64,000 nt of DNA, taken from Luteimonas wenzhouensis (GTDB lineage Bacteria; Pseudomonadota; Gammaproteobacteria; Xanthomonadales; Xanthomonadaceae). Below are positions 7,102 to 44,509 of the stretch, piece after piece. The notes beneath the pieces are model-generated. The model was not told the DNA's origin. It searched no databases and saw nothing but the letters and a program-made list of their open reading frames with translations. Positions within the stretch are counted from its first letter, which is position 1. Every line of letters starts with the position of its first letter. The position numbers and the translations under genes are program-made. The stretch covers positions 1-64,000 of the forward strand of contig NZ_VOHE01000009.1 of the NCBI RefSeq assembly GCF_007859305.1. Reading direction: 5' to 3'.

Positions 7102-7773
7102 TCAGGCGCTGCCCGGCCCCGCGGCCAGGCGGTTGATCGCGTCGTTCTCCACCACCCGGGGCGGGGACGGCATGGCCGCGAGTGCCAGCATCGCGCGGCC
7201 GAGGTGCGCGGTGCTGGTCAGCAGCCCCGGCGCCAGCCTCGCGCCCACGCCCATCAGCGGCGCGGCCACCGCGTAGAACGGGCGCATCCAGCGGTGCGGG
7301 CTGCGTTCGCCGTGCGCCGGCCGGATCCCGCCGGGGCGCAACATCACCGTGGTGAGCGGCAGCGCCTGCAGCGCGACCTCGGTCTCGCCCTTGATCCGCA
7401 GCGGCATGATCCGGCTGCCGGGATCGGCGTGCGCGCCCGAAACGTAGAGCAGGCGCGCGCGCGGATTGCGTTCGGCGAAGGCGCGGGCCACGTGCAGGGT
7501 GAGGTCGAAGGTGACGTGGCGGTAGCGCCCCTGTGGCGTGCCCACGGGCGGGGCGCCGGCGCAGTAGAAGCAGGCATCGAACGGCGCCAGGCGGTCGAGG
7601 ACGCCTTCGAGGGCGTCGAAGCGTTCGACCACCAGGTCCTGCACCCGCGGATCGGCGTGGCCGATCGCGCGCCGGCCGAGTACCGCCACCGCCGACACGT
7701 CCGGACGGGCGAGCGCTTCGACCAGCACGCCCTGCCCGACCAGCCCCGTGGCGCCCGTCATCAGGATCCGCAT
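7102..7773 (-). CDS. NAD(P)-binding epimerase-like oxidoreductase
   Basis: A 223-residue short-chain, NmrA/HTATIP2-like Rossmann protein. The dinucleotide-binding glycine motif GATGLVGQG lies at residues 7-15, followed by an acidic/basic strand end (LGRRAIG) and the LLYVSGAHAD segment where a YVSA-type motif is usual. Proteins of this type are often annotated as nucleoside-diphosphate-sugar epimerases but more probably are NADP-dependent reductases or redox sensors. No operon partner is evident; it is a lone gene with about 100 bases on each side. Confidence 0.75.
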   Translation of the reverse strand: MRILMTGATGLVGQGVLVEALARPDVSAVAVLGRRAIGHADPRVQDLVVERFDALEGVLDRLAPFDACFYCAGAPPVGTPQGRYRHVTFDLTLHVARAFAERNPRARLLYVSGAHADPGSRIMPLRIKGETEVALQALPLTTVMLRPGGIRPAHGERSPHRWMRPFYAVAAPLMGVGARLAPGLLTSTAHLGRAMLALAAMPSPPRVVENDAINRLAAGPGSA

Positions 7774-7873
7774 GGTGCCTCCAACGCAAGCTCCCGGCGC
7801 AGTCTAGCGACCGCGTTCGCCGTGCGTCGACGGGCGCCCGACGCGGCGCGGCGCGACCGCGCGCCGGCGCCGG

Positions 7874-8365
7874 TCAGTCCAGCGCCTCGAGGATGACACC
7901 CCAGCCGCCGGGTGGCCGATGCGCGGCGAGCGCGTCGCGGACCACGTCGTCCACGACCAGGTCGGCCGGGATCCCGGCGCGCCGGAACATGTGCACTGCG
8001 CCGGCACCGGGTGGCGGGGCGTCCGCGGCACCCGGCCCGCGCTGGCCCAGCACGTTGAACAGCTGGTAGTCGTGCCGGACCGCGCCGCTGCCGCGGATCG
8101 ACAGCCGCGCCCGGAAGGACTGGAAGTTGTCGGCGCCCGCGGCACGCAGGGTGGCGATGAAGGCGTCGCTGGCGAGCACCGTGCCGCCGGTCATGAAGTG
8201 CGGCAGCCAGGCATCGTCCGGGGCGTCGAGCTCGAACTCGAGCGGCGGCAGGCCGGTGGTTTCGATGGGCCGCCCCTGCAGCACGCTCGCGTCGTGCAGC
8301 GCCGGCTGCGAGACGATCCCGTGGTCGTGCGAGTAGTCCTCGTACAGCCGGTACCAGCCGCGCAT
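7874..8365 (-). CDS. Imm11/DUF1629-like protein
   Basis: A 163-residue protein without signal peptide. The central part, with VLASDAFIATLRAAGADNFQSF followed a few residues on by YQLFNVLG, and the C-terminal repeat-like PADLVVDDVVRDALAAH resemble the Imm11 (DUF1629) immunity-protein family, in which two similar halves each end in a 'serine/valine-D-x-x-R/K-x-A/L' helix. Imm11 proteins neutralise polymorphic toxins, but many chromosomal homologues have no toxin neighbour, and none is visible here. Its ATG overlaps the stop of the upstream FKBP gene (TGATG), so the two are translated together. The family call rests on pattern only. Confidence 0.5.
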   Translation of the reverse strand: MRGWYRLYEDYSHDHGIVSQPALHDASVLQGRPIETTGLPPLEFELDAPDDAWLPHFMTGGTVLASDAFIATLRAAGADNFQSFRARLSIRGSGAVRHDYQLFNVLGQRGPGAADAPPPGAGAVHMFRRAGIPADLVVDDVVRDALAAHRPPGGWGVILEALD

Positions 8366-8799
8366 CAGCGGCGGATGTCCAGCAGTTCGACCTCGAACAC
8401 CAGCGACGCGCCGGGCGGGATCACCTTGCCGGCGCCGCGCTCGCCGTATCCCAGCCAGGCAGGGATGTACAGCTCGCGCTTGCCGCCCGGCTGCATGCCC
8501 TCCAGGCCTTCGTCCCAGCCGCGGATCACCCGCCCGGTGCCCAGCCGGAACACGAACGGCTGGCCGCGGTCGCGCGAACTGTCGAACTTCGCGCCGCGCC
8601 GGTCCGGCGCCTTCGCGTCGTGCAGCCAGCCGGTGTAGTGGACGGAGACCTCATCGCCGGCCGTCGCCGCCGGGCCGCTGCCCACGACGATGTCCACGCG
8701 CTGCAGTTCAGGGACGTCGCCACCGGTGTACGGCGGCGGCCCGCCGCAGGCCGTGGGCAGCGCGAGCAGGCAGGACGAGAGGAACAGGCGGAACTTCAT
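8365..8799 (-). CDS. FKBP-type peptidyl-prolyl isomerase, lipoprotein
   Basis: A 144-residue predicted lipoprotein (LPTACGG, Cys18) consisting of one FKBP domain: [42 protein letters not shown], and [14 protein letters not shown] with [12 protein letters not shown] at the end. These contain the usual active-site aromatics and Asp. It should catalyse prolyl cis-trans isomerisation in the periplasm, as FkpA/Mip relatives do, but it lacks their N-terminal dimerisation helices. It is translationally coupled to the Imm11-like gene downstream. Confidence 0.9.
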
Positions 8800-8856
8800 G
8801 GCATGGACACAGGCGCGCGGACGGGGGACAGGATAGCCGCCACGGTCGCCCGGCGG

Positions 8857-9786
8857 TCAGAACGCGACCACGCCCTGCACCCGCAGGTAACGGTACGCGT
8901 ATGCGCCGCTGCCGTCGCCGGCCAGCACCGGCGTGTCGGAGTAGCCCGCGTCCACGCGCAGCCAGGCATCGCGCCAGCGGGGTGTTTCCAGTCCCACTTC
9001 CACCATGCGCGCACGGCGCCACGCATCGTCGGCGTTGCGCTGCCGCCCGATGCCGGCCGCGGCGCGCCACTGGTACCCGCCAACGAAACGCCGCCAGCCC
9101 GCCACGCCCATCGCCTCGCCGTACCACGGCGGCGAGAAATAGTCCGCTTCGTACGGGTGGCTGTTGCGGTGATAGCGGGTGCGCAGCTGCAGGCTGATGC
9201 CCTGGGACGGCACCAGCGCATGCACCAGGGTGCCGCGCAGGTGGGTGCGCAGGTTGCGGCCCGTCCCGAAGTGCTGCGCGCCGCCGAGCAGGGTGGCCGA
9301 CCAGCGCTCGCCCATCGGCAGGTCCACGGTGGCGCCGGCGAAGGTGTGGACCCAGCCGGCGGCCACGCCGCGGCGCGTCTCGAGCGTGTCGCGCTCGATG
9401 AAGACCTCCTTGCGGCGGGCGTCGAGGCTGTGGAGCGAGGCGCGGCCGAGCAGCTCGCTGCCGTTGCTGCCCAGGTCGCCCTGCCAGCGCCACGTGCCCA
9501 GGTCGCCGGCTCCGGACAGGTAGGCGCGGTCCTCATGCCCGTGCCAGCCGTTCCCGGAGAACTCGGCGCGTTCGACCTTCACGCCCCACCAGTGGTCGAG
9601 GTCGCGGTGGGCCAGGTCCCAGCCCAGGGCCAGGCGCCGGGTCTGGTTGCCGTCGGCGTCCGAACTGGCCCAGGCATCGGCGCGCACCGCCTGGCGGTGC
9701 GCACCTTCGCCGGCGACGGCCGGGGCGGCCAGCGCCGCCATCGTCGCGGCGAGCGCAGCGGCGGCGAGGGACGCGACGGGCCTCAT
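8857..9786 (-). CDS. Predicted outer-membrane beta-barrel protein, partner of GT2 glycosyltransferase
   Basis: A 309-residue protein with a signal peptide (about residues 1-25, ending AVAG) and alternating aromatic/hydrophilic strands ending in the C-terminal phenylalanine (GVVAF) typical of outer-membrane barrels. The stretch HRNSHPYEADYFSPPWYGE and the spacing of strands recall the barrel portion of PgaA/BcsC-type polysaccharide export proteins, but the TPR part of those proteins is missing. Its ATG overlaps the stop of the glycosyltransferase gene by four bases (ATGA), so it is likely a secretion pore for that polymer. No family name could be assigned with certainty. Confidence 0.55.
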   Translation of the reverse strand: MRPVASLAAAALAATMAALAAPAVAGEGAHRQAVRADAWASSDADGNQTRRLALGWDLAHRDLDHWWGVKVERAEFSGNGWHGHEDRAYLSGAGDLGTWRWQGDLGSNGSELLGRASLHSLDARRKEVFIERDTLETRRGVAAGWVHTFAGATVDLPMGERWSATLLGGAQHFGTGRNLRTHLRGTLVHALVPSQGISLQLRTRYHRNSHPYEADYFSPPWYGEAMGVAGWRRFVGGYQWRAAAGIGRQRNADDAWRRARMVEVGLETPRWRDAWLRVDAGYSDTPVLAGDGSGAYAYRYLRVQGVVAF

Positions 9787-26406: not shown

Positions 26407-27453
26407 ATGCACAGACGGGACTTCCTCAAGGCCACCGCGCTGTTGGCCGGGGCGCCGGCGGCGGGCCTGGCCGCTACCACGGCCGCGCCAGGCACCGCGC
26501 GCCTCCTGCCGCGGCCGCTGTCGCCGGGCGACACGGTCGCCCTGGTGAGTCCGTCGGCGGCCGTCGCCGAACCGCTGGACCTGCAGTTGGCCCGCGAGGT
26601 GATGGAGGCACTGGGCCTGCGCGTGGTCACCGGCGCGCACTACGCCGACCGCCGCGGCCACCTGGCGGGCGACGACGCGGCGCGCGCCGGCGACCTCAAC
26701 GCCGCGTTCGCCGATCCGGCGGTGGCGGCCATCGTCTGCACCCGGGGCGGCTCCGGTGCCGCGCGCCTGCTGCCGCTGCTCGACTATGACGCGATCCGCG
26801 CCAACCCCAAGCCGCTGCTCGGCTACTCCGACATCACCGCGCTGCATTGCGCGATCCAGGCCCGCACTGGCCTGGTCACCTTCCACGGTCCGATCGGCAC
26901 CGGCAGCTGGAGCCGGTTCAACGCCGACCAGTTCCGGCGCGTGTTCTTCGACCGCGAGCTGATGCACTACGCCAACCGCCGCGATCCCGACGACGACGAG
27001 CTGGTGCCGCGCCGCAACCGCACCATGACCCTGCGCGGCGGCAAGGCGCGCGGCCGCCTGCTCGGCGGCAACCTCACCGTGCTCAGTGCGCTGGCCGGCT
27101 CGCCCTACCTGCCGGACTTCGACGGCGCGATCCTCTTCCTCGAGGACGTCTCGGAAGCGCCGTACCGGATCGACCGGATGCTCACCACGCTCAAGCTCGC
27201 CGGGATCCTCGACCGCATCGCCGGCTTCGTGTTCGGCGAGTGCACCGATTGCGAGCCGGGCCCGGGCTACGGCTCGCTCACCCTGGCGCAGATCCTGGAC
27301 GACCACGTCCGGCCGCTGGGGATCCCGGCGTACCGCGGCGCGATGATCGGCCACATCCGCGACCAGTTCATCGTGCCGGTCGGCGCCGAGGTCGAACTCG
27401 ACGCGGACGCGGGCAGCTTTCGCATGCTCTCGCCGGCGTTCGCGGCCGGGTAG
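26407..27453 (+). CDS. LD-carboxypeptidase with Tat leader
   Basis: A 348-residue S66-family peptidase. A twin-arginine leader (HRRDFLKATALL) is followed by the domain start LSPGDTVALVSPS, the conserved CTRGGSGAARLLPLLDYD, the nucleophile serine in GYSDITALH, the catalytic Glu in LFLEDVSEAP and the His in AMIGHI near the end. The family removes the terminal D-alanine from the tetrapeptide of peptidoglycan during recycling, normally in the cytoplasm. Export by Tat points to a periplasmic version, unusual but seen in some relatives. Confidence 0.88.
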   Translation: MHRRDFLKATALLAGAPAAGLAATTAAPGTARLLPRPLSPGDTVALVSPSAAVAEPLDLQLAREVMEALGLRVVTGAHYADRRGHLAGDDAARAGDLNAAFADPAVAAIVCTRGGSGAARLLPLLDYDAIRANPKPLLGYSDITALHCAIQARTGLVTFHGPIGTGSWSRFNADQFRRVFFDRELMHYANRRDPDDDELVPRRNRTMTLRGGKARGRLLGGNLTVLSALAGSPYLPDFDGAILFLEDVSEAPYRIDRMLTTLKLAGILDRIAGFVFGECTDCEPGPGYGSLTLAQILDDHVRPLGIPAYRGAMIGHIRDQFIVPVGAEVELDADAGSFRMLSPAFAAG

Positions 27454-27576: not shown

Positions 27577-29115
27577 TTACTCCAGCGCCAGAACCACCAC
27601 CGACTTCGCCGGCAGGGTCGCGCTCAGCGTGCCGTCCACCAGCCGCGCGCCCTCGAACGGCCGCGGCCGCACGGTGTCGGGGGCGTCGAAGGTGTTGTGC
27701 GCGTCGATCGCGTCGGCGGTGAGAACCTCGCCGACGACCCCGGAAGCCTCCACCCCACGCAGCGAGATCGTGACCTCCTTGCCCTCGCGCGGATCGAGGT
27801 TCACCAGGCCCACGTAAAGCTTGCCGTCGGTGCCGCGGGCCGCGGTCCCGTCGACTGCGCGCAGGCCGCCGTACGCGGGCGACTCGAGCTCCAGCGGCAG
27901 CGAAGTCGCGCCCTGGAAGGGGCGGTACATGCGGAACGCGTGGAAGGTGGGCGTGCGCACCATCTTCGGCCCGTCGGTGAGCAACATGGCCTGGAGCACG
28001 TTGACCATCTGCGCGATCCCGGCCGCCCGCAGCCGGCGCGCGTTGCGATGGAAGATGCCGAAGTTGACCGCCGCCACCAGCGCGTCGCGGATGCTGTTCT
28101 GCTGCTGCAGCCAGCCGCCCGGCGAACCGGGAGTCGGGTCGTACCAGGTGCCCCATTCGCCGATGATGAGCGCCTTCTCCCCCTCCGGGTCGAACTCGTC
28201 CATGATCGCCACCTGCTCCTGGATCATCGGCTCGATCATGTAGGTGCGCTCGAAGGTCGCCAGCCACTGAGACTCGTCGAAGCCGGTGGCCGGTCCCTTG
28301 TTCTCCCAGTCGCCGGTGGGCAGGGTGTAGTAGTGCATCGAGAACGCATCCATGTGCTCGATCGCGAGCTCCATCGTGGTGCGGGTCCACTCCGGGTCGG
28401 TCGCGTCCGGGCCCGAGGCGATGATCGTCGCCCCGCCGTGCGGCACGATGAAGCCCACGTACTGGCGGAACTGGTCGGCGAACCACTCCGCGCGCATCCG
28501 CCCGCCGCAGCCGTTGGGTTCGTTGCCGATGCCGAGGAAGTCGATCTTCCACGGCTCGTCGCGTCCGTTGCGCCGGCGCTCCTGGGCGAGCGTCGAATTG
28601 GTCGGCGAGGTGATGTACTCGACCCACTGCATCGCCTCGCGCGGCGTACCGGTGCCGACGTTGACGTTGAGGAAGGTCTTGGCGCCGACCAGCTCGGCGA
28701 ACTCGAAGAACTCGTGGGTGCCGAAGGCGTTGTGCTCCTCCTTGTTGCCCCACCAGCGGTTGAGCGTGACCGGGCGCGACTCGCGCGGGCCGATGCCGGT
28801 GCGCCAGTCATAGATGTCGGCGTAGCACCCGCCCGGCCAGCGCAGCACCGGCACCTTCAGCTCCTTGAGCGCCTCGAGCACGTCGTTGCGGTAGCCGCGG
28901 GTGTTGGGGATGTCCGAGTCCGGACCGACCCAGATCCCGCCGTCGATCCCGGTGCCCAGCTGCTCCATGAACTGGCCGTAGAGCTCGGGTGCGATCACCG
29001 GGCCGGGACGGTCGGCGTGCAGGGTGCCGGTGACATCCGCGGCCATGGCGGCGGACGCGCCGGCGGACAGCAGCAGGACGCAGGCTGCGGAGCGCAGCAG
29101 GGTGGGCATGCTCAT
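27577..29115 (-). CDS. Secreted GH51 alpha-L-arabinofuranosidase
   Basis: A 512-residue glycoside hydrolase with a signal peptide (ends AAMAA). The family-51 landmarks are present: the N-terminal ELYGQFMEQLG, VPVLRWPGGCYADIYDW, the acid/base Glu in FLGIGNEPNGCGG and the nucleophile Glu in LIIGEWGTWYD, followed by a C-terminal beta-domain (LNLDPREGKEV-type stretch and final VVVLALE). It should release arabinose from plant arabinan or arabinoxylan. GH51 enzymes are more often cytoplasmic, so a secreted form suits a plant-debris lifestyle. GGAGG lies about twelve bases before the chosen ATG. No sugar operon surrounds it. Confidence 0.9.
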   Translation of the reverse strand: MSMPTLLRSAACVLLLSAGASAAMAADVTGTLHADRPGPVIAPELYGQFMEQLGTGIDGGIWVGPDSDIPNTRGYRNDVLEALKELKVPVLRWPGGCYADIYDWRTGIGPRESRPVTLNRWWGNKEEHNAFGTHEFFEFAELVGAKTFLNVNVGTGTPREAMQWVEYITSPTNSTLAQERRRNGRDEPWKIDFLGIGNEPNGCGGRMRAEWFADQFRQYVGFIVPHGGATIIASGPDATDPEWTRTTMELAIEHMDAFSMHYYTLPTGDWENKGPATGFDESQWLATFERTYMIEPMIQEQVAIMDEFDPEGEKALIIGEWGTWYDPTPGSPGGWLQQQNSIRDALVAAVNFGIFHRNARRLRAAGIAQMVNVLQAMLLTDGPKMVRTPTFHAFRMYRPFQGATSLPLELESPAYGGLRAVDGTAARGTDGKLYVGLVNLDPREGKEVTISLRGVEASGVVGEVLTADAIDAHNTFDAPDTVRPRPFEGARLVDGTLSATLPAKSVVVLALE

Positions 29116-29632
29116 GGTGCGATGGATCCTCCGTATCGGGTCGGTACCCGCCGCGCGCCTCCCCGGGCGCCGGCGGCCTGGCCGCAGTCTGTCCAACATC
29201 CCGCCGGGAGTCGACCGCCGGCGGCCGCGCGGACGGCACCGGGGCGGGCCGCCTCGCGCGCCCGCCGGGCTGCGCCCGCGGCGCCGGAAAGCGCGCGGAT
29301 GCGCGCAGATGCGCGGGGTTCGCGCGTGTTCGTGGCCTCGCGCGGCGGCCGCGCGAGGGCGTCAAGGGGATACCGGTTCCTGCATGGCGCCTGCGCGCAT
29401 TGGAATGGCCGCCGCGTTCCGCTGCCCGGGCCTGGCCCACCGGGGGCCGGCGGGCGCGTGGCCTGGCGCGGGCGCCTGGTTGGGGGCGGACTGCGCGACC
29501 GCGCCATATGCTAATGTCCGTCCATTGCGCACCCGGAAGCATGGCCGGCCGGGAGCGGGGCCAGGTGCCCCCGGGTGCGGGGCGCGCCATCGGCCGCGCC
29601 CGGGACGAACCGCGGACTGTTCGGGGGAGACG
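29116..29632. other. Divergent intergenic region upstream of the borosin locus
   Basis: The 517 bases between the arabinofuranosidase start and the borosin precursor contain no supportable gene. The only AT-rich patch is around 29,505-29,522, within a GC-rich stretch; it is the best place for a promoter of the peptide gene. Confidence 0.5.
29480..29515 (+). promoter_or_regulatory. Possible promoter of the borosin locus
   Basis: CATATGCTAAT at 29,505-29,515 resembles an extended -10 element and is the only AT-rich patch in the region. TTGGGG at 29,480-29,485 is a weak -35 candidate, but the spacing (about 19-24 bases depending on the -10 chosen) is not ideal. This would give a leader of about 110 bases. 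Confidence 0.25.
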
Positions 29633-29851
29633 ATGTCCAGACTGCTTGAACTCATGCGCAAGCTCGGCAGCGACGCAGCGCTCGCCGCCGAGTACGAGAA
29701 GAATCCGGAGGCGGTCCTGCAACGCGCCGGACTGAGCGCGGAAGAGCGCAAGGCGATGCTGGAGAAGGATTACGAGGCGATCAAGCGGCTGACCGGCCTG
29801 GCCGACGGCAAGTTCGCCACCAACCACCTGATCCGCACGTACGAAGACTAG
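29633..29851 (+). CDS. Borosin-type RiPP precursor peptide
   Basis: A 72-residue peptide. Residues 1-54 are predicted helical and follow the pattern of bacterial borosin precursors and LigA-like small domains: LLELMRKLGSDAALAAEY, KNPEAVLQRAGLSAEE, then a helix KDYEAIKRLTG. The last ~18 residues (GLADGKFATNHLIRTYED) lack helix pattern and are the probable core, with hydrophobic and beta-branched residues near the C-terminus. In the split borosins known from Shewanella (SonA), the helical part binds the methyltransferase and backbone amides of the tail are N-methylated. A GGGGGAGA ribosome-binding site precedes the ATG. The next gene, 27 bases on, encodes the matching methyltransferase. The exact methylated positions are not predictable. 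Confidence 0.85.
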   Translation: MSRLLELMRKLGSDAALAAEYEKNPEAVLQRAGLSAEERKAMLEKDYEAIKRLTGLADGKFATNHLIRTYED

Positions 29852-29878
29852 CCGCGCGAGGTTACCTTGGGCCACGGG

Positions 29879-32389
29879 ATGGGCCGACGCTGGTCAGTTG
29901 GATTGCTGTGGCTGGCACTGCTCGCCGGCCCGGCAGCGGCGAACGAGACGCTCGAGCCGGAGCTGCGCGAGATCGAACGCCTCGGCTACGCCGCGCATTG
30001 GCGCGAGTCGGACGAGCGGATCCAGGCGCTCGCCGATCGCCAGGACGAGCTGAGCCGGGAACAGCGCCAGCGGCTGGAGTACGTGCGCCTGCGCAACCTC
30101 GGCATCGCCGGCCGCCTCGAGGAGGCGGTCGAGGGCTTCGACCGGCTGCTGCGCGAGGAGATGCCGGCCAAGCTGAAGGTGAAGGCGTTCTCGACCGCGG
30201 CCAGCATCGCGGCCAACCTCGAAGACTGGACCATGGCGTTCACCTGGCTGGGCGAGGCGCTGTCCTACGTGCCCGAGGTGCCCGACGACGCGCCCCGCGT
30301 GCTCGGCATGGCCAGCTACCTGCATTCACTGGTGGGCGAGACCGACAAGGCACGCGAACTGGCGCTGCGCGGCCTGACCATGGTGGAGGAGAGCGGCGAC
30401 CAGCGCGCCATCTGCCACGCGCTGTCCGACCTTGCCCTGGCCGAGGAACTGGTCGGCAAGCACGCCGAATCCGGGCGCCTGCGGCGGCGGCAGATGGAGG
30501 TGTGCGACGAAGCGGGTGACCGGATCTTTTCGGCCAACGCGCGCTACGGCGTGGGCAAGATGCTCGCCGCCCAGGGCCGCCCGGAGGAAGGGCTGGCGTG
30601 GGTGCGCCAGGCGCAGGCCGATTTCGAGGAATCGGGCTTCGAAGCCGGCGCCTGGAGCGCGCGGCTGGTGGTCGCCGAATGCCTGATCGCCACCGACCGC
30701 GAACTCGACCACGCCCACGACCTGCTGGTCGACGCGCTGCGCTATTACCGCGAGCGCGACTCCCAGATCGCGGTGGCCGAAGCCGAACGCCTGCTCGCCG
30801 ACCTGGCCGAGCACCGCGGCGACCCGGTGCAGGCCCTGCGCCACCTAAAGGGCGCGGCGGCCGCGTCGGAGGCGGCCGAGCGCGCCGCGCGCGAGCGCCA
30901 GCTGGCCTACCTGCAGGTCGAGTTCGACACCCGCCTCAAGGAGCGGCAGATCGCGCTGCTGGAAGCGGAAAAGGAGCTGGCCGCGCTCCAGGTCACCGCC
31001 ACCCGGCGGCGGCAGTGGCTGTTGGCGGCGGGCGTGGTGGCGCTGCTGGCGACGGCGCTGTTGCTGGTCGTGCTGTTGCACCGTGCGTTCCTGGAGCGGC
31101 GCCGCTACCGCTGGCAATCCGAGCGCGACAGCCTCACCGGGCTGCTCAACTATCAGCAGGTGCGCCGCCTCGGCCAGGAGGCGTTCGCGCGCGCCCACGG
31201 CAACGGGCGGCCGTTCACCGCGATCGTGCTCGATATCGACTGGTTCAAGGAAGTCAACGACCGCTACGGCCACGCCGCCGGCGATGAGGCGTTGCGCGCC
31301 CTGGGCGGCTGGATCGCCGAGGTGGTCGAGGGCCGGGGCATCGCCGGGCGCAGTGGCGGCGACGAGTTCACGATCCTGCTCGAGGGCACCGAGGAGGACG
31401 CGGGCGCCCTGCTGGACCGGCTGCGCGCGCGGATGGAGGCGGTGAGCGTGTTCGGACAGACCGTGCACTTCAGCATCAGCGCCGGCATCTGCCAGGACCG
31501 CGACAGCAACGGCACGCTTGAGCACCTGGTGCACGAGGCCGACCAGGCCCTGTACCGCGCCAAGTACGCCGGGCGCGACCGCACCGTCTGCGCCGGCGAC
31601 ACCGCGCCGCAGGCCGGCGGCGGCGGCCTGGTGGTGGTGGGCAGCGGGATCGAGTTCGGCCGCCACATCAGCGAGCGCTGCCTGTCGGAGATCCGCGAGG
31701 CGCAGGTGGTGTTCTGCCTGACCGACCCGTTCTCGCTGGCCATGGTGCAGGGCCTGCGCCCGGATGCGATCAACCTCGGCGCCTACTACGCCGAGGGCAA
31801 GGACCGGCGCATCACCTACCGCGAGATCGACGACGCGATCATGGCCCAGGTGCGCGCCGGCAAGCGGGTGTGCGCGGTGTTCTACGGCCATCCTGGCGTG
31901 TTCGCCGACGTGCCGCACGCGGTGATCCGCAAGGCGCGTGCGGAGGGCATCCGGGCCAGGATGGAGCCGGGGATCTCGGCCGAGGCCTGCCTGTACGCGG
32001 ACCTGGGCATCGACCCGGGTCGCCGTGGCGTGCAGTCGATGGAGGCCACCCACTTCCTGCATTACGACCGCGTCCCGGACACCGCCGGACTGGTGCTGCT
32101 GTGGCAGGTGGCGCTGTCCGGCGACCTGAGCTGCAGCCGCTTCCACCCCGAGCGCGAAGGCCTGCAGGCGCTGGTGGACCGGCTGCTGCGCTGGTACCCG
32201 GCCGACCACGAAGTGATCCTGTACGAAGCCGCACGGCTGCCGATCCAGGAGCCGCGCATCGAGCGCCTGGCGTTGCAGGCCCTGCCCGACGCGCATTACG
32301 AGGAATACACCACGCTGGTGATTCCGCCGCTGGGCGACCTGGAGCCGGTCGACGCAACGGGGCCGGCGGCGACGGGCACCGCCGGCTAG
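29879..32389 (+). CDS. Membrane TPR-GGDEF diguanylate cyclase fused to a borosin-type N-methyltransferase
   Basis: An 836-residue protein with five parts. (1) Signal peptide, residues 1-21 (ends GPAAA). (2) Periplasmic TPR-like helical repeats, about 30-325, leading into a coiled coil to ~378. (3) A membrane helix, about 380-402. (4) A GGDEF domain, about 412-572, with RDSLTGLLNY, DIDWFKEVNDRYGH and an intact SGGDEF (GGDEF at 493-497). There is no RxxD inhibitory site, since VEGRGIAGRSGGDEF has no Asp in place. (5) A tetrapyrrole-methylase-like domain, about 583-825, that closely resembles the fungal borosin enzyme OphMA: NLGAYYAEGKDRRITY with the catalytic-type Tyr and Arg, VFYGHPGVF (SAM loop) and RARMEPGISAEACLYADLGIDP. 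The methyltransferase and cyclase lie in the cytoplasm. A TTG at 29,867 with GAGG five bases upstream could be the true start, adding four residues. See findings. Confidence 0.92.
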   Translation: MGRRWSVGLLWLALLAGPAAANETLEPELREIERLGYAAHWRESDERIQALADRQDELSREQRQRLEYVRLRNLGIAGRLEEAVEGFDRLLREEMPAKLKVKAFSTAASIAANLEDWTMAFTWLGEALSYVPEVPDDAPRVLGMASYLHSLVGETDKARELALRGLTMVEESGDQRAICHALSDLALAEELVGKHAESGRLRRRQMEVCDEAGDRIFSANARYGVGKMLAAQGRPEEGLAWVRQAQADFEESGFEAGAWSARLVVAECLIATDRELDHAHDLLVDALRYYRERDSQIAVAEAERLLADLAEHRGDPVQALRHLKGAAAASEAAERAARERQLAYLQVEFDTRLKERQIALLEAEKELAALQVTATRRRQWLLAAGVVALLATALLLVVLLHRAFLERRRYRWQSERDSLTGLLNYQQVRRLGQEAFARAHGNGRPFTAIVLDIDWFKEVNDRYGHAAGDEALRALGGWIAEVVEGRGIAGRSGGDEFTILLEGTEEDAGALLDRLRARMEAVSVFGQTVHFSISAGICQDRDSNGTLEHLVHEADQALYRAKYAGRDRTVCAGDTAPQAGGGGLVVVGSGIEFGRHISERCLSEIREAQVVFCLTDPFSLAMVQGLRPDAINLGAYYAEGKDRRITYREIDDAIMAQVRAGKRVCAVFYGHPGVFADVPHAVIRKARAEGIRARMEPGISAEACLYADLGIDPGRRGVQSMEATHFLHYDRVPDTAGLVLLWQVALSGDLSCSRFHPEREGLQALVDRLLRWYPADHEVILYEAARLPIQEPRIERLALQALPDAHYEEYTTLVIPPLGDLEPVDATGPAATGTAG

Positions 32390-42354: not shown

Positions 42355-43213
42355 ACCTTCCACCCGCCTGCGTCACTGGTGGATCGCCGCCTGCCTGCTG
42401 CTGGCGATGCTGGCCGGCTGCCGGACGCTCGAACCGGCGCCCGCACCGACGCTGCGGGTCATGTCGTTCAACGTGCTCGTGGCGCGCGACATCGAGGGCC
42501 CGGCCCGGTGGTCGGGACGCCGCGATGCGCTGGTACAGGTGATCGCCGACGCCGATCCGGACCTGCTCGGGACCCAGGAGCTGCTGCGCGAACAGGCCGA
42601 CTTCATCACCGCGCGCCTGCCGCAGTACGCCTGGTTCGGCCACGGCCGCCGCGGCGATGGCGCCGCCGACGACGAGCACATGGGCGTGTTCTACCACCGC
42701 GAACGGATGCGCCTGCTCGACTCCGGCCACTTCTGGCTGTCGGACACGCCCGACGTGCCCGGCAGCATCACCTGGGGCACCAGGTATCCGCGCATGGCCA
42801 GCTGGGGCCTGTTCGAGCGGATCGCCGACGGGAAGCGGCTGTACCTGCTCAACACCCACATGCCGTACCGGGACGAGGACGCCACCGCGCGGGAACGCGG
42901 CGCGACGCTGATCCTGCGCCATATCGCCGGCCTGCCCGCCGACCTGCCGGTGGTGCTGGTGGGCGACTTCAACGACATCCCCGGCCACCCGCCGCACCGG
43001 GCGTTGACCGCGGTGCTGGACGACGCCTGGGAGCACGCGCCACGCCGTTCCGGGCCGGAGGGCACCGGCCACTGGTTCGAAGGCAGGGCCGAACGCCGCC
43101 TGGACTGGGTGCTCTCGCGCGGACTGCGGCCACGCACGGTCCGCCACCTGGACGACGCGGTGGACGGCGTGCTGCCGTCGGACCATTACCCGGTGCTGGT
43201 CGAGTTCGACTGA
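42344..43213 (+). CDS. Endonuclease/exonuclease/phosphatase-family lipoprotein
   Basis: A 289-residue predicted lipoprotein (LLLAMLAGCR). It has the fold's landmarks in order: RVMSFNVL, the metal-binding Glu in LLGTQELL, the LLNTHMPYRD block (His), VVLVGDFNDIPG (DFN) and the terminal PSDHYPVLVEFD (catalytic DH). The family includes DNases, sphingomyelinases and inositol phosphatases. Its substrate is not decided by sequence, and a periplasmic nuclease or phosphodiesterase is the best general reading. It is co-transcribed with the acyltransferase-3 gene. Confidence 0.85.
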   Translation: MRTEPSTRLRHWWIAACLLLAMLAGCRTLEPAPAPTLRVMSFNVLVARDIEGPARWSGRRDALVQVIADADPDLLGTQELLREQADFITARLPQYAWFGHGRRGDGAADDEHMGVFYHRERMRLLDSGHFWLSDTPDVPGSITWGTRYPRMASWGLFERIADGKRLYLLNTHMPYRDEDATARERGATLILRHIAGLPADLPVVLVGDFNDIPGHPPHRALTAVLDDAWEHAPRRSGPEGTGHWFEGRAERRLDWVLSRGLRPRTVRHLDDAVDGVLPSDHYPVLVEFD

Positions 43214-44292
43214 GGCGCCGGATCGCCTGGCGGCGCGGGGGCATGCGCCACCACCCGGTTGCGACCGGCCGCCTTGGCCCGGTACAGCGCGGCATCGGCC
43301 GAGCGCATCCAGGCATCCAGGGTCGGGTCCTGCGGCGACGCGGCCGCCACCCCGAGGCTCAGCGTGCACGACAGCGACGATGCACCGTCGAAGCGCAGGG
43401 CGGCGGTCTCGCGGCGGATGCGCTCGGCCACCTCCAGCGCCTGGGGCAGGGTGGCGTCCACCAGCAGCAGCGCGAACTCGTCGCCACCGTAGCGGCCGGG
43501 CAGGTCGCTCTCGCGCACGCTGTCGCGCAGCAGCGCCGCGATCCGCTGCAGCACCGCGTCGCCCATCGCGTGGCCGTGGCGGTCGTTGACCTGCTTGAAG
43601 TGGTCCACGTCCAGCAGCACCAGGGCGGCCGGGCGGCCGGTCCGCTGGAAGCGCGCCAGGGCCTCGGCCGCGACCTGCTCGAAGTAGGGGCGGTTGGCGA
43701 CCTGCATCGCCGGGTCGGTGCGGTTGCGTCGCTCGAGCTCCCGGTTCTGCACCCGGATCCGCTGCCCCAGGCGGTTGGTCACCACGCTCAGGGCCACGGT
43801 GTAGACGAACAGGAACGGGATGCACAGCAGCAGGGTGCGGTCCGAGGCGCGGGGCTCGAACGGCCAGCCGAGCAGGCCCCAGGCGAGGACGAACCCCGCC
43901 AACAGGGCCAGGCTGCTGCGCTTGACCAAGCGCCAGCCGCCGGCGGCGATCTTGTCGGCGGTGGCCATGGTGACGAACAGCACCGTGGGCGCCAGGCTGA
44001 CCGCGATCGCCGCCGACCAGGCACCCGACGCCGCCGCGTCCAGGGTCAGGCAGCGGAACTGCGCCCGGGCCGGATCGCGCGCGCGCCGGCACAGGCAGTT
44101 GGCCAGCAACGGCCAGCCCACCGCGTTGAACACCATCACCGCCCACAGCGGCCAGCCCACGCCGCGTTCGGCCAGGACCGACGCGATCGGCAGCGCGCAC
44201 AGCACGGTGCCGAGCATCCGCATGCGATGGACCCGGCGCACGAACTGCAGGTCGCGCGCGCGGCGTTCGGCCACGGTCGCATAGGGCGGCAT
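43186..44292 (-). CDS. MASE2-GGDEF diguanylate cyclase
   Basis: A 368-residue membrane protein with an N-terminal MASE2-like sensor of about six helices (start RVHRMRMLGTVLC) and a C-terminal GGDEF domain: DPAMQVANRPYF, VLLDVDHFKQVNDRHGH, and the active-site GRYGGDEF. The stretch RESDLPGRYGGDEF has the RxxD inhibitory site (RESD), so feedback by cyclic-di-GMP is expected. It makes cyclic-di-GMP from GTP. The ATG at 44,292 was chosen as the start of the conserved region. Its 3' end overlaps the convergent endonuclease/exonuclease/phosphatase-family gene by 28 bases. Confidence 0.88.
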   Translation of the reverse strand: MPPYATVAERRARDLQFVRRVHRMRMLGTVLCALPIASVLAERGVGWPLWAVMVFNAVGWPLLANCLCRRARDPARAQFRCLTLDAAASGAWSAAIAVSLAPTVLFVTMATADKIAAGGWRLVKRSSLALLAGFVLAWGLLGWPFEPRASDRTLLLCIPFLFVYTVALSVVTNRLGQRIRVQNRELERRNRTDPAMQVANRPYFEQVAAEALARFQRTGRPAALVLLDVDHFKQVNDRHGHAMGDAVLQRIAALLRDSVRESDLPGRYGGDEFALLLVDATLPQALEVAERIRRETAALRFDGASSLSCTLSLGVAAASPQDPTLDAWMRSADAALYRAKAAGRNRVVAHAPAPPGDPAPQSNSTSTG

Positions 44293-44509
44293 CGGCAAGG
44301 GCGGATCGCGCTGGTTCACGTCCAGGTTATCGGCAGCGCCGGGGATTACTGGACCCTCCGGTATGTGAAACCGTGAATGCGCGGTTTGCGTCGGCCCCCG
44401 GCGGCCGCTATCGTGGGCGGGCGTCATCGCACCGTGTGTTGTTCCGGTGTCCTGTCATCCGACGCGATCCCCTCGATACCCACCCCCATGCAATCCAAGG
44501 AGGATCTCC

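Follow-up and report, generated by a model that had tools for sequence, protein, structure and literature searches.

The question raised by this locus is why an enzyme expected to methylate a small peptide should share a polypeptide with a membrane sensor and a diguanylate cyclase, and what that sensor reads. The locus lies in the window, i.e. the 64,000-nucleotide stretch of Luteimonas wenzhouensis DNA that was analyzed (host genome, 3.44 Mb; closest named relative, Luteimonas sp. J29). As described in a first-pass annotation, a gene for a 72-residue peptide (29633..29851, + strand) is followed after 27 bases by an open reading frame for an 836-residue protein (29879..32389, +); a Shine-Dalgarno-like GAGG suits TTG 29867 better than ATG 29879, so the protein may begin at the former and contain 840 residues. 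That annotation proposed a domain search and made its case depend on a TP_methylase domain in the C-terminal 240 residues. In the 836-residue protein, Pfam recovers, each above its curated cut-off and in this order, TPR_12 (E = 1.6e-10), GGDEF (residues 416-568, E = 7.3e-34), and TP_methylase (residues 584-785, E = 3.2e-18).

The protein opens with a Sec-type signal peptide, MGRRWSVGLLWLALLAGPAAANE (residues 1-22, 29879..29944, +), that has an A-x-A site, and a hydrophobic signal also starts its homologues. There follow a TPR solenoid sensor (residues 23-375, 29945..31003, +); a transmembrane helix (residues ~378-400, 31010..31078, +), indicated by hydropathy and AlphaFold2 and lying within a long helix of residues 316-415; a GGDEF diguanylate cyclase domain (residues 410-572, 31106..31594, +), recognized by NCBIfam as well as Pfam; a linker between the fused parts (residues 573-582, 31595..31624, +); and an α-N-methyltransferase (MT) domain (residues 583-820, 31625..32338, +). 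Because of the signal peptide and the single transmembrane helix, the TPR solenoid is predicted to face the periplasm and the GGDEF and MT domains the cytoplasm, in agreement with the layout first proposed. The claim of an intact cyclase active site also holds: the GGDEF and D.D..K..ND..GH..GD motifs are complete, and with GG[DE]EF and the metal/GTP-binding residues present the domain should synthesize c-di-GMP; a motif search of it for an RxxD I-site found none. A signal peptide, a periplasmic sensor, one transmembrane helix, and an intact GGDEF motif are common to this protein and to membrane diguanylate cyclases with periplasmic sensors, but none with a C-terminal peptide-modifying enzyme is described in the literature searched. 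A second, ordinary membrane diguanylate cyclase is encoded 11 kb downstream in the window (43186-44427, −) and is retained in a relative (L049, 15128-16252); in the intergenic segment 39877-40356, a GC-rich 47-nt element with inverted arms occurs four times, spaced by 135-149 nt (three 142-nt units).

Judged by its sequence, the 72-residue peptide is a SonA-like borosin precursor. A phmmer search of the PDB matches residues 1-57 to SonA (7ltc_B, E = 8.6e-08); the leader, residues 1-56 (29633..29800, +), aligns with the borosin binding domain (BBD) of SonA and is conserved in 44 precursors, and the putative core, ADGKFATNHLIRTYED (residues 57-72, 29801..29848, +), stands after the BBD as in SonA and is conserved across genera. 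SonM/SonA is the split (type IV) borosin system of Shewanella oneidensis, in which SonA is methylated at L63/I65 (PMC8429565). The identification of the last ~240 residues of the window protein as a borosin α-N-methyltransferase stands on the TP_methylase and SonM matches, but their assignment to the OphMA type gives way to a SonM type, since the domain matches SonM (PDB 7ltc) with E = 7.6e-75 and OphA with 8.4e-42. It is 53% identical to SonM (127/240 aligned), and among the active-site and lock residues of SonM discussed in PMC8429565, Y58, R67, R68, Y71, Y93, F99, E146, W166, Q167, and F179 are kept (Y637, R643, Y647, and Y669 of the window protein being conserved); Glu173 is changed to Asp, Gln178 to Arg, and Gln55 to Gly. 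With a SonM/OphM-type TP_methylase that retains its catalytic residues and a separate BBD precursor in its own reading frame (29633-29851), the locus is by sequence a split borosin, as had been proposed, and α-N-methylation of the core backbone amides by the MT domain is predicted. It shares with SonM/SonA the separate precursor and SonA-like BBD, but differs in that the MT is fused behind TPR-TM-GGDEF, in the order precursor then fusion, and in its core sequence. SonM-like genes also occur on plasmids or secondary replicons (plasmid records H1-H9) in Streptomyces, Bradyrhizobium, Burkholderia, Sinorhizobium, Azospirillum, Mycetohabitans, and Legionella and, at 25% identity, in Haloarcula.

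Borosins in general and their split form are established, and types 0-XI are described in PMC11395268. The single-chain types 0 and XI, as presented there, likewise have a C-terminal MT, but in the window the core is not on the MT chain, the BBD-core precursor being a separate frame (29633-29851); OphMA-like self-methylation in cis was therefore rejected. The first-pass annotation knew of no borosin methyltransferase joined to a signaling cyclase. This is probably not so, as the legend to Fig. 1 of PMC11395268 (2024; borosin types), the only mention of GGDEF in the borosin literature searched, defines a “GGDEF-sequence-containing domain.” The architecture so annotated is very probably the same as, or near to, that of the window, although the text names neither its type nor whether the GGDEF is fused or neighboring, and leaves the TPR sensor unmentioned. 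Because a GGDEF-bearing borosin architecture is thus already in print, the fusion architecture is probably not new. No description of the TPR sensor as a borosin partner was found in the literature searched, the main borosin classification papers lying outside that search; of the two, the sensor association has the better claim to novelty, the fusion being a variant of a known architecture.

The first-pass annotation had called for a search for the same architecture among relatives, and named the absence of a peptide gene beside homologues as grounds for abandoning its reading. Full-length fusions with 62-84% identity were found in 11 further genomes in a first search of relatives; a fused MT is present in 20 of the 52 genomes of the genus and at 45 of 80 named loci, mostly in Luteimonas, Pseudoxanthomonas, Thermomonas, Dokdonella, and other Lysobacterales but also in the betaproteobacterium Rubrivivax, and a BBD precursor gene adjoins 43 of the fused genes. 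The dN/dS values (TPR, 0.25; GGDEF, 0.24; MT, 0.13) indicate purifying selection after fusion, whereas that of the ten-residue joint is about 1.4, i.e. the linker is unconstrained. The fusion is therefore neither a chance event nor an assembly error. The MT tree places the fused domains in a single clade (100/100), and its nearest rows belong to loci where precursor, TPR sensor, and MT are encoded in that order by separate genes; in two loci of Wenzhouxiangella and kin (L062 and L063), the end of the cyclase gene abuts the start of the MT gene or overlaps it by a few bases. For these reasons the fusion is best explained by one late event in which adjacent or overlapping genes were joined; by their sequences, these genes were ordered precursor, TPR-GGDEF, MT. 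In Rubrivivax (L113, L115, and L118), where the MT of the fused gene is 78-80% identical to that of the window, the gene was likely acquired by horizontal transfer. A Dokdonella metagenome-assembled genome has the whole precursor-plus-fusion unit in tandem duplicate (L120:679-6762).

Gene-order comparisons indicate that the association of precursor, MT, and sensor is general and predates the fusion. A gene encoding this TPR membrane sensor is fused to the MT or lies within 4 kb of it at 142 of 149 borosin MT loci, a count in which the genome survey and the named loci overlap in part: 42 of 43 MT loci in the genome survey, 79 of 80 named loci (all but L140, which is cut short by a contig end), all 20 loci of a second gammaproteobacterial order, and one of six MT loci in a distant draw. 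Within the genus, 39 of the 52 genomes have both MT and sensor, 13 have neither, and none has one without the other. Across the 397 genomes of the order, the two are both present (194) or both absent (174) in 368, with nine having the MT only and 20 the sensor only, several of these single-gene cases being incomplete assemblies (Fisher p = 3e-76, ignoring kinship); the second order gives 33, 106, three, and seven, respectively (p = 9e-23, again ignoring kinship). Unfused relatives within the order have MT, precursor, and TPR-GGDEF genes in succession. At seven second-order loci whose MT is 66-78% identical to SonM, genes for the MT, a SonA-like precursor, and TPR-GGDEF are consecutive, the cyclase frame being broken in one (L218), and S. 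oneidensis itself would be expected to carry TPR-GGDEF as a third gene. The ancestral form, as far as the sequences allow it to be traced, is one of separate genes, including the SonM/SonA group.

Variation among these loci bears on what the sensor reads. At three of them, the GGDEF of the TPR sensor is replaced or supplemented by histidine kinase, ATPase, and receiver domains (L093:8977-11934, L094:9383-12628, and L157:2848-5883). At eight others, a precursor/TPR-GGDEF gene pair occurs twice in succession after a single MT gene (L167, L171, L177, L185, L187, L188, L194, and L195; Rheinheimera, Dyella, and others). Precursors and sensors are thus paired 1:1 in eight two-sensor loci, and eight further ones have two sensors and a single detectable precursor; a search of the gaps in the latter for missed precursors found none. 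Two fused loci have decayed: in L060 (genome G013, 7757-9740), in-frame deletions have removed the MT domain and, from the precursor, its middle with most of the BBD, leaving the core; in L061 (genome G036, 7923-9698), an intact TPR-GGDEF is left, both MT and precursor having disappeared. MT and precursor therefore decay together; each of the two genomes retains another, unfused borosin locus. The core follows the consensus FATNHxI[KR]xY/[FY]ATNHxI[KR]AY from Luteimonas to Rubrivivax and, at 3.03 bits over 43 loci, is nearly as conserved as the leader (3.3 bits), unlike an antibiotic core; such conservation is more in keeping with a signal than with a weapon.

When the whole fusion was used as a structural query, all of the best 50 matches listed were to the MT. 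The TPR sensor was therefore modeled alone with AlphaFold2 (pLDDT 92), and the first two Foldseek ranks for this model are Rap with its CSF peptide. VIA-align Z scores are 25.2 for RapF with peptide (4.4 Å, 307 residues), 24.9 for a phage Rap with pheromone, 21.7 for NprR with NprX, 30.1 for APPBP2 with a degron, and 23.6 for MalT domain III. The model thus most resembles peptide-binding TPRs, among them the Rap/NprR pheromone receptors, which is a lead and not proof, as TPR folds are widely alike and the structural match is weak evidence. The RRNPP systems (Rap-Phr, NprR-NprX) offer an analogy in that a TPR solenoid and a neighboring small peptide gene are common to them and the window and their folds are the best or near-best matches. 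However, the RRNPP receptors are cytoplasmic proteins of Bacillota with HTH or phosphatase outputs (Spo0F/ComA-binding or similar) and respond to unmethylated linear peptides, whereas the window TPR is predicted to be periplasmic, its output is GGDEF (elsewhere a histidine kinase), and its peptide would be N-methylated; the sequences share only about 9-14% identity, too low for homology to be claimed from sequence.

The comparative data favor the peptide itself as the probable signal, and the reading to which we give most weight, with a probability of roughly 0.45, is that the borosin binds its own sensor-cyclase as a ligand, enzyme and receptor being joined here on one chain. The MT domain would bind the precursor through the BBD and N-methylate backbone amides of the conserved core in the cytoplasm; a putative protease and exporter would free the core and carry it to the periplasm, where it would bind the concave face of the TPR solenoid, and binding would alter the long trans-membrane helix and activate or inactivate GGDEF dimers, with a resulting change in c-di-GMP. 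Three findings point to the peptide as what the sensor reads, namely the replacement of the output while the TPR stays, the repeated precursor-sensor pairs, and the likeness of the TPR model to peptide-binding TPRs; sensor association, co-occurrence, core conservation, and the joint decay of MT and precursor suggest the same. Against it stand the eight two-sensor loci with a single detectable precursor and the two decayed loci, in which TPR-GGDEF is kept after MT and precursor function is lost. A partial Mantel analysis of 43 fused loci, with GGDEF and MT controlled, gave no co-divergence of core and TPR (r = 0.02, p = 0.39), and comparison of neighboring genes revealed no exporter or protease conserved across borosin loci; these two results hold the probability at the value given. 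S66, M20, and M13 peptidases and a GNAT protein were considered as candidates but recur only as local synteny and not at every locus (M20, M13, and GNAT by eye). In the window, an S66 (LD-carboxypeptidase/MccF-type) peptidase with a TAT signal is encoded upstream of the precursor (26407-27450, +), separated from it by an α-L-arabinofuranosidase gene (27577-29199, −); in L049 and L059 the S66 gene is immediately 5′ of the precursor.

The model of the first-pass annotation, in which the TPR reads an unrelated extracellular cue and c-di-GMP, direct coupling, or both then lead to a borosin being made and methylated, the borosin having its role elsewhere, e.g. in metal handling or competition, is less probable. 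The architecture alone is compatible with it, and it accommodates both the missing co-divergence of core and TPR and the retention of the sensor without MT in the two decayed loci. It leaves unexplained, however, why it is the TPR sensor and not the output domain that is tied to borosin genes, why the sensor is nearly absent from borosin-free genomes, and why precursor and sensor are duplicated as pairs.

Borosin MTs act as dimers, and GGDEF domains must dimerize to function; coupling could instead be cytoplasmic, with the binding or methylation state of the precursor acting in cis on the cyclase. The MT dimer, opened and closed by the peptide or SAM, would then gate c-di-GMP synthesis, and the peptide would be an intracellular regulator. 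In favor of this, the MT comes directly after the GGDEF and is separated from it by a short linker, there is a weak correlation between core and GGDEF distances (partial r = 0.20, p = 0.01), and no exporter conserved across the loci was found. We nevertheless consider this unlikely, since MT and GGDEF are separate proteins at most loci outside the fused clade, so that coupling in cis is not the ancestral mechanism, and the conserved periplasmic TPR is left without a role. A little less probable still is a neutral fusion of convenience, in which MT and sensor-cyclase were co-transcribed in one regulon and, with no direct coupling between them, a stop codon was lost between overlapping genes. 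The abutting or overlapping genes of L062 and L063, the single origin, and the unconstrained linker are all in keeping with it; purifying selection on both halves after fusion, strongest on the MT, and a sensor association far wider than the fusion are not.

If the borosin is indeed the ligand, a new class of modified peptide signal in Gram-negative bacteria would be implied. Shared genes for peptide, enzyme, and sensor in hundreds of related bacteria suggest that orphan modified peptides are signals, and, with its peptide-receptor-like fold and its co-occurrence with the MT in two bacterial orders, the sensor provides these peptides with a concrete and directly testable function, c-di-GMP signaling; the SonM/SonA structures already exist for the design of tests. 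The wider proposal is put forward more tentatively than the reading for the window: gammaproteobacterial split borosins, SonM/SonA included, may be backbone-N-methylated signals, each having its own Rap-like TPR receptor in the periplasm, whose output is c-di-GMP (or a phosphorelay), with the methylating enzyme and receptor-cyclase being one protein in Lysobacterales. Two further arrangements were observed in the surveys. Three or four stand-alone TPR proteins of ~350 residues, without an output domain, are encoded near a borosin MT in two genomes (G908:C1:1215428-1220196 and G937:C1:481127-484294). At two other loci (L095:3504-5764 and L096:8239-10312), a distant borosin-type MT is accompanied by a short upstream reading frame and a downstream transporter-like one (MFS by eye), without TPR-GGDEF, and these may represent a possible exporter-linked borosin type.
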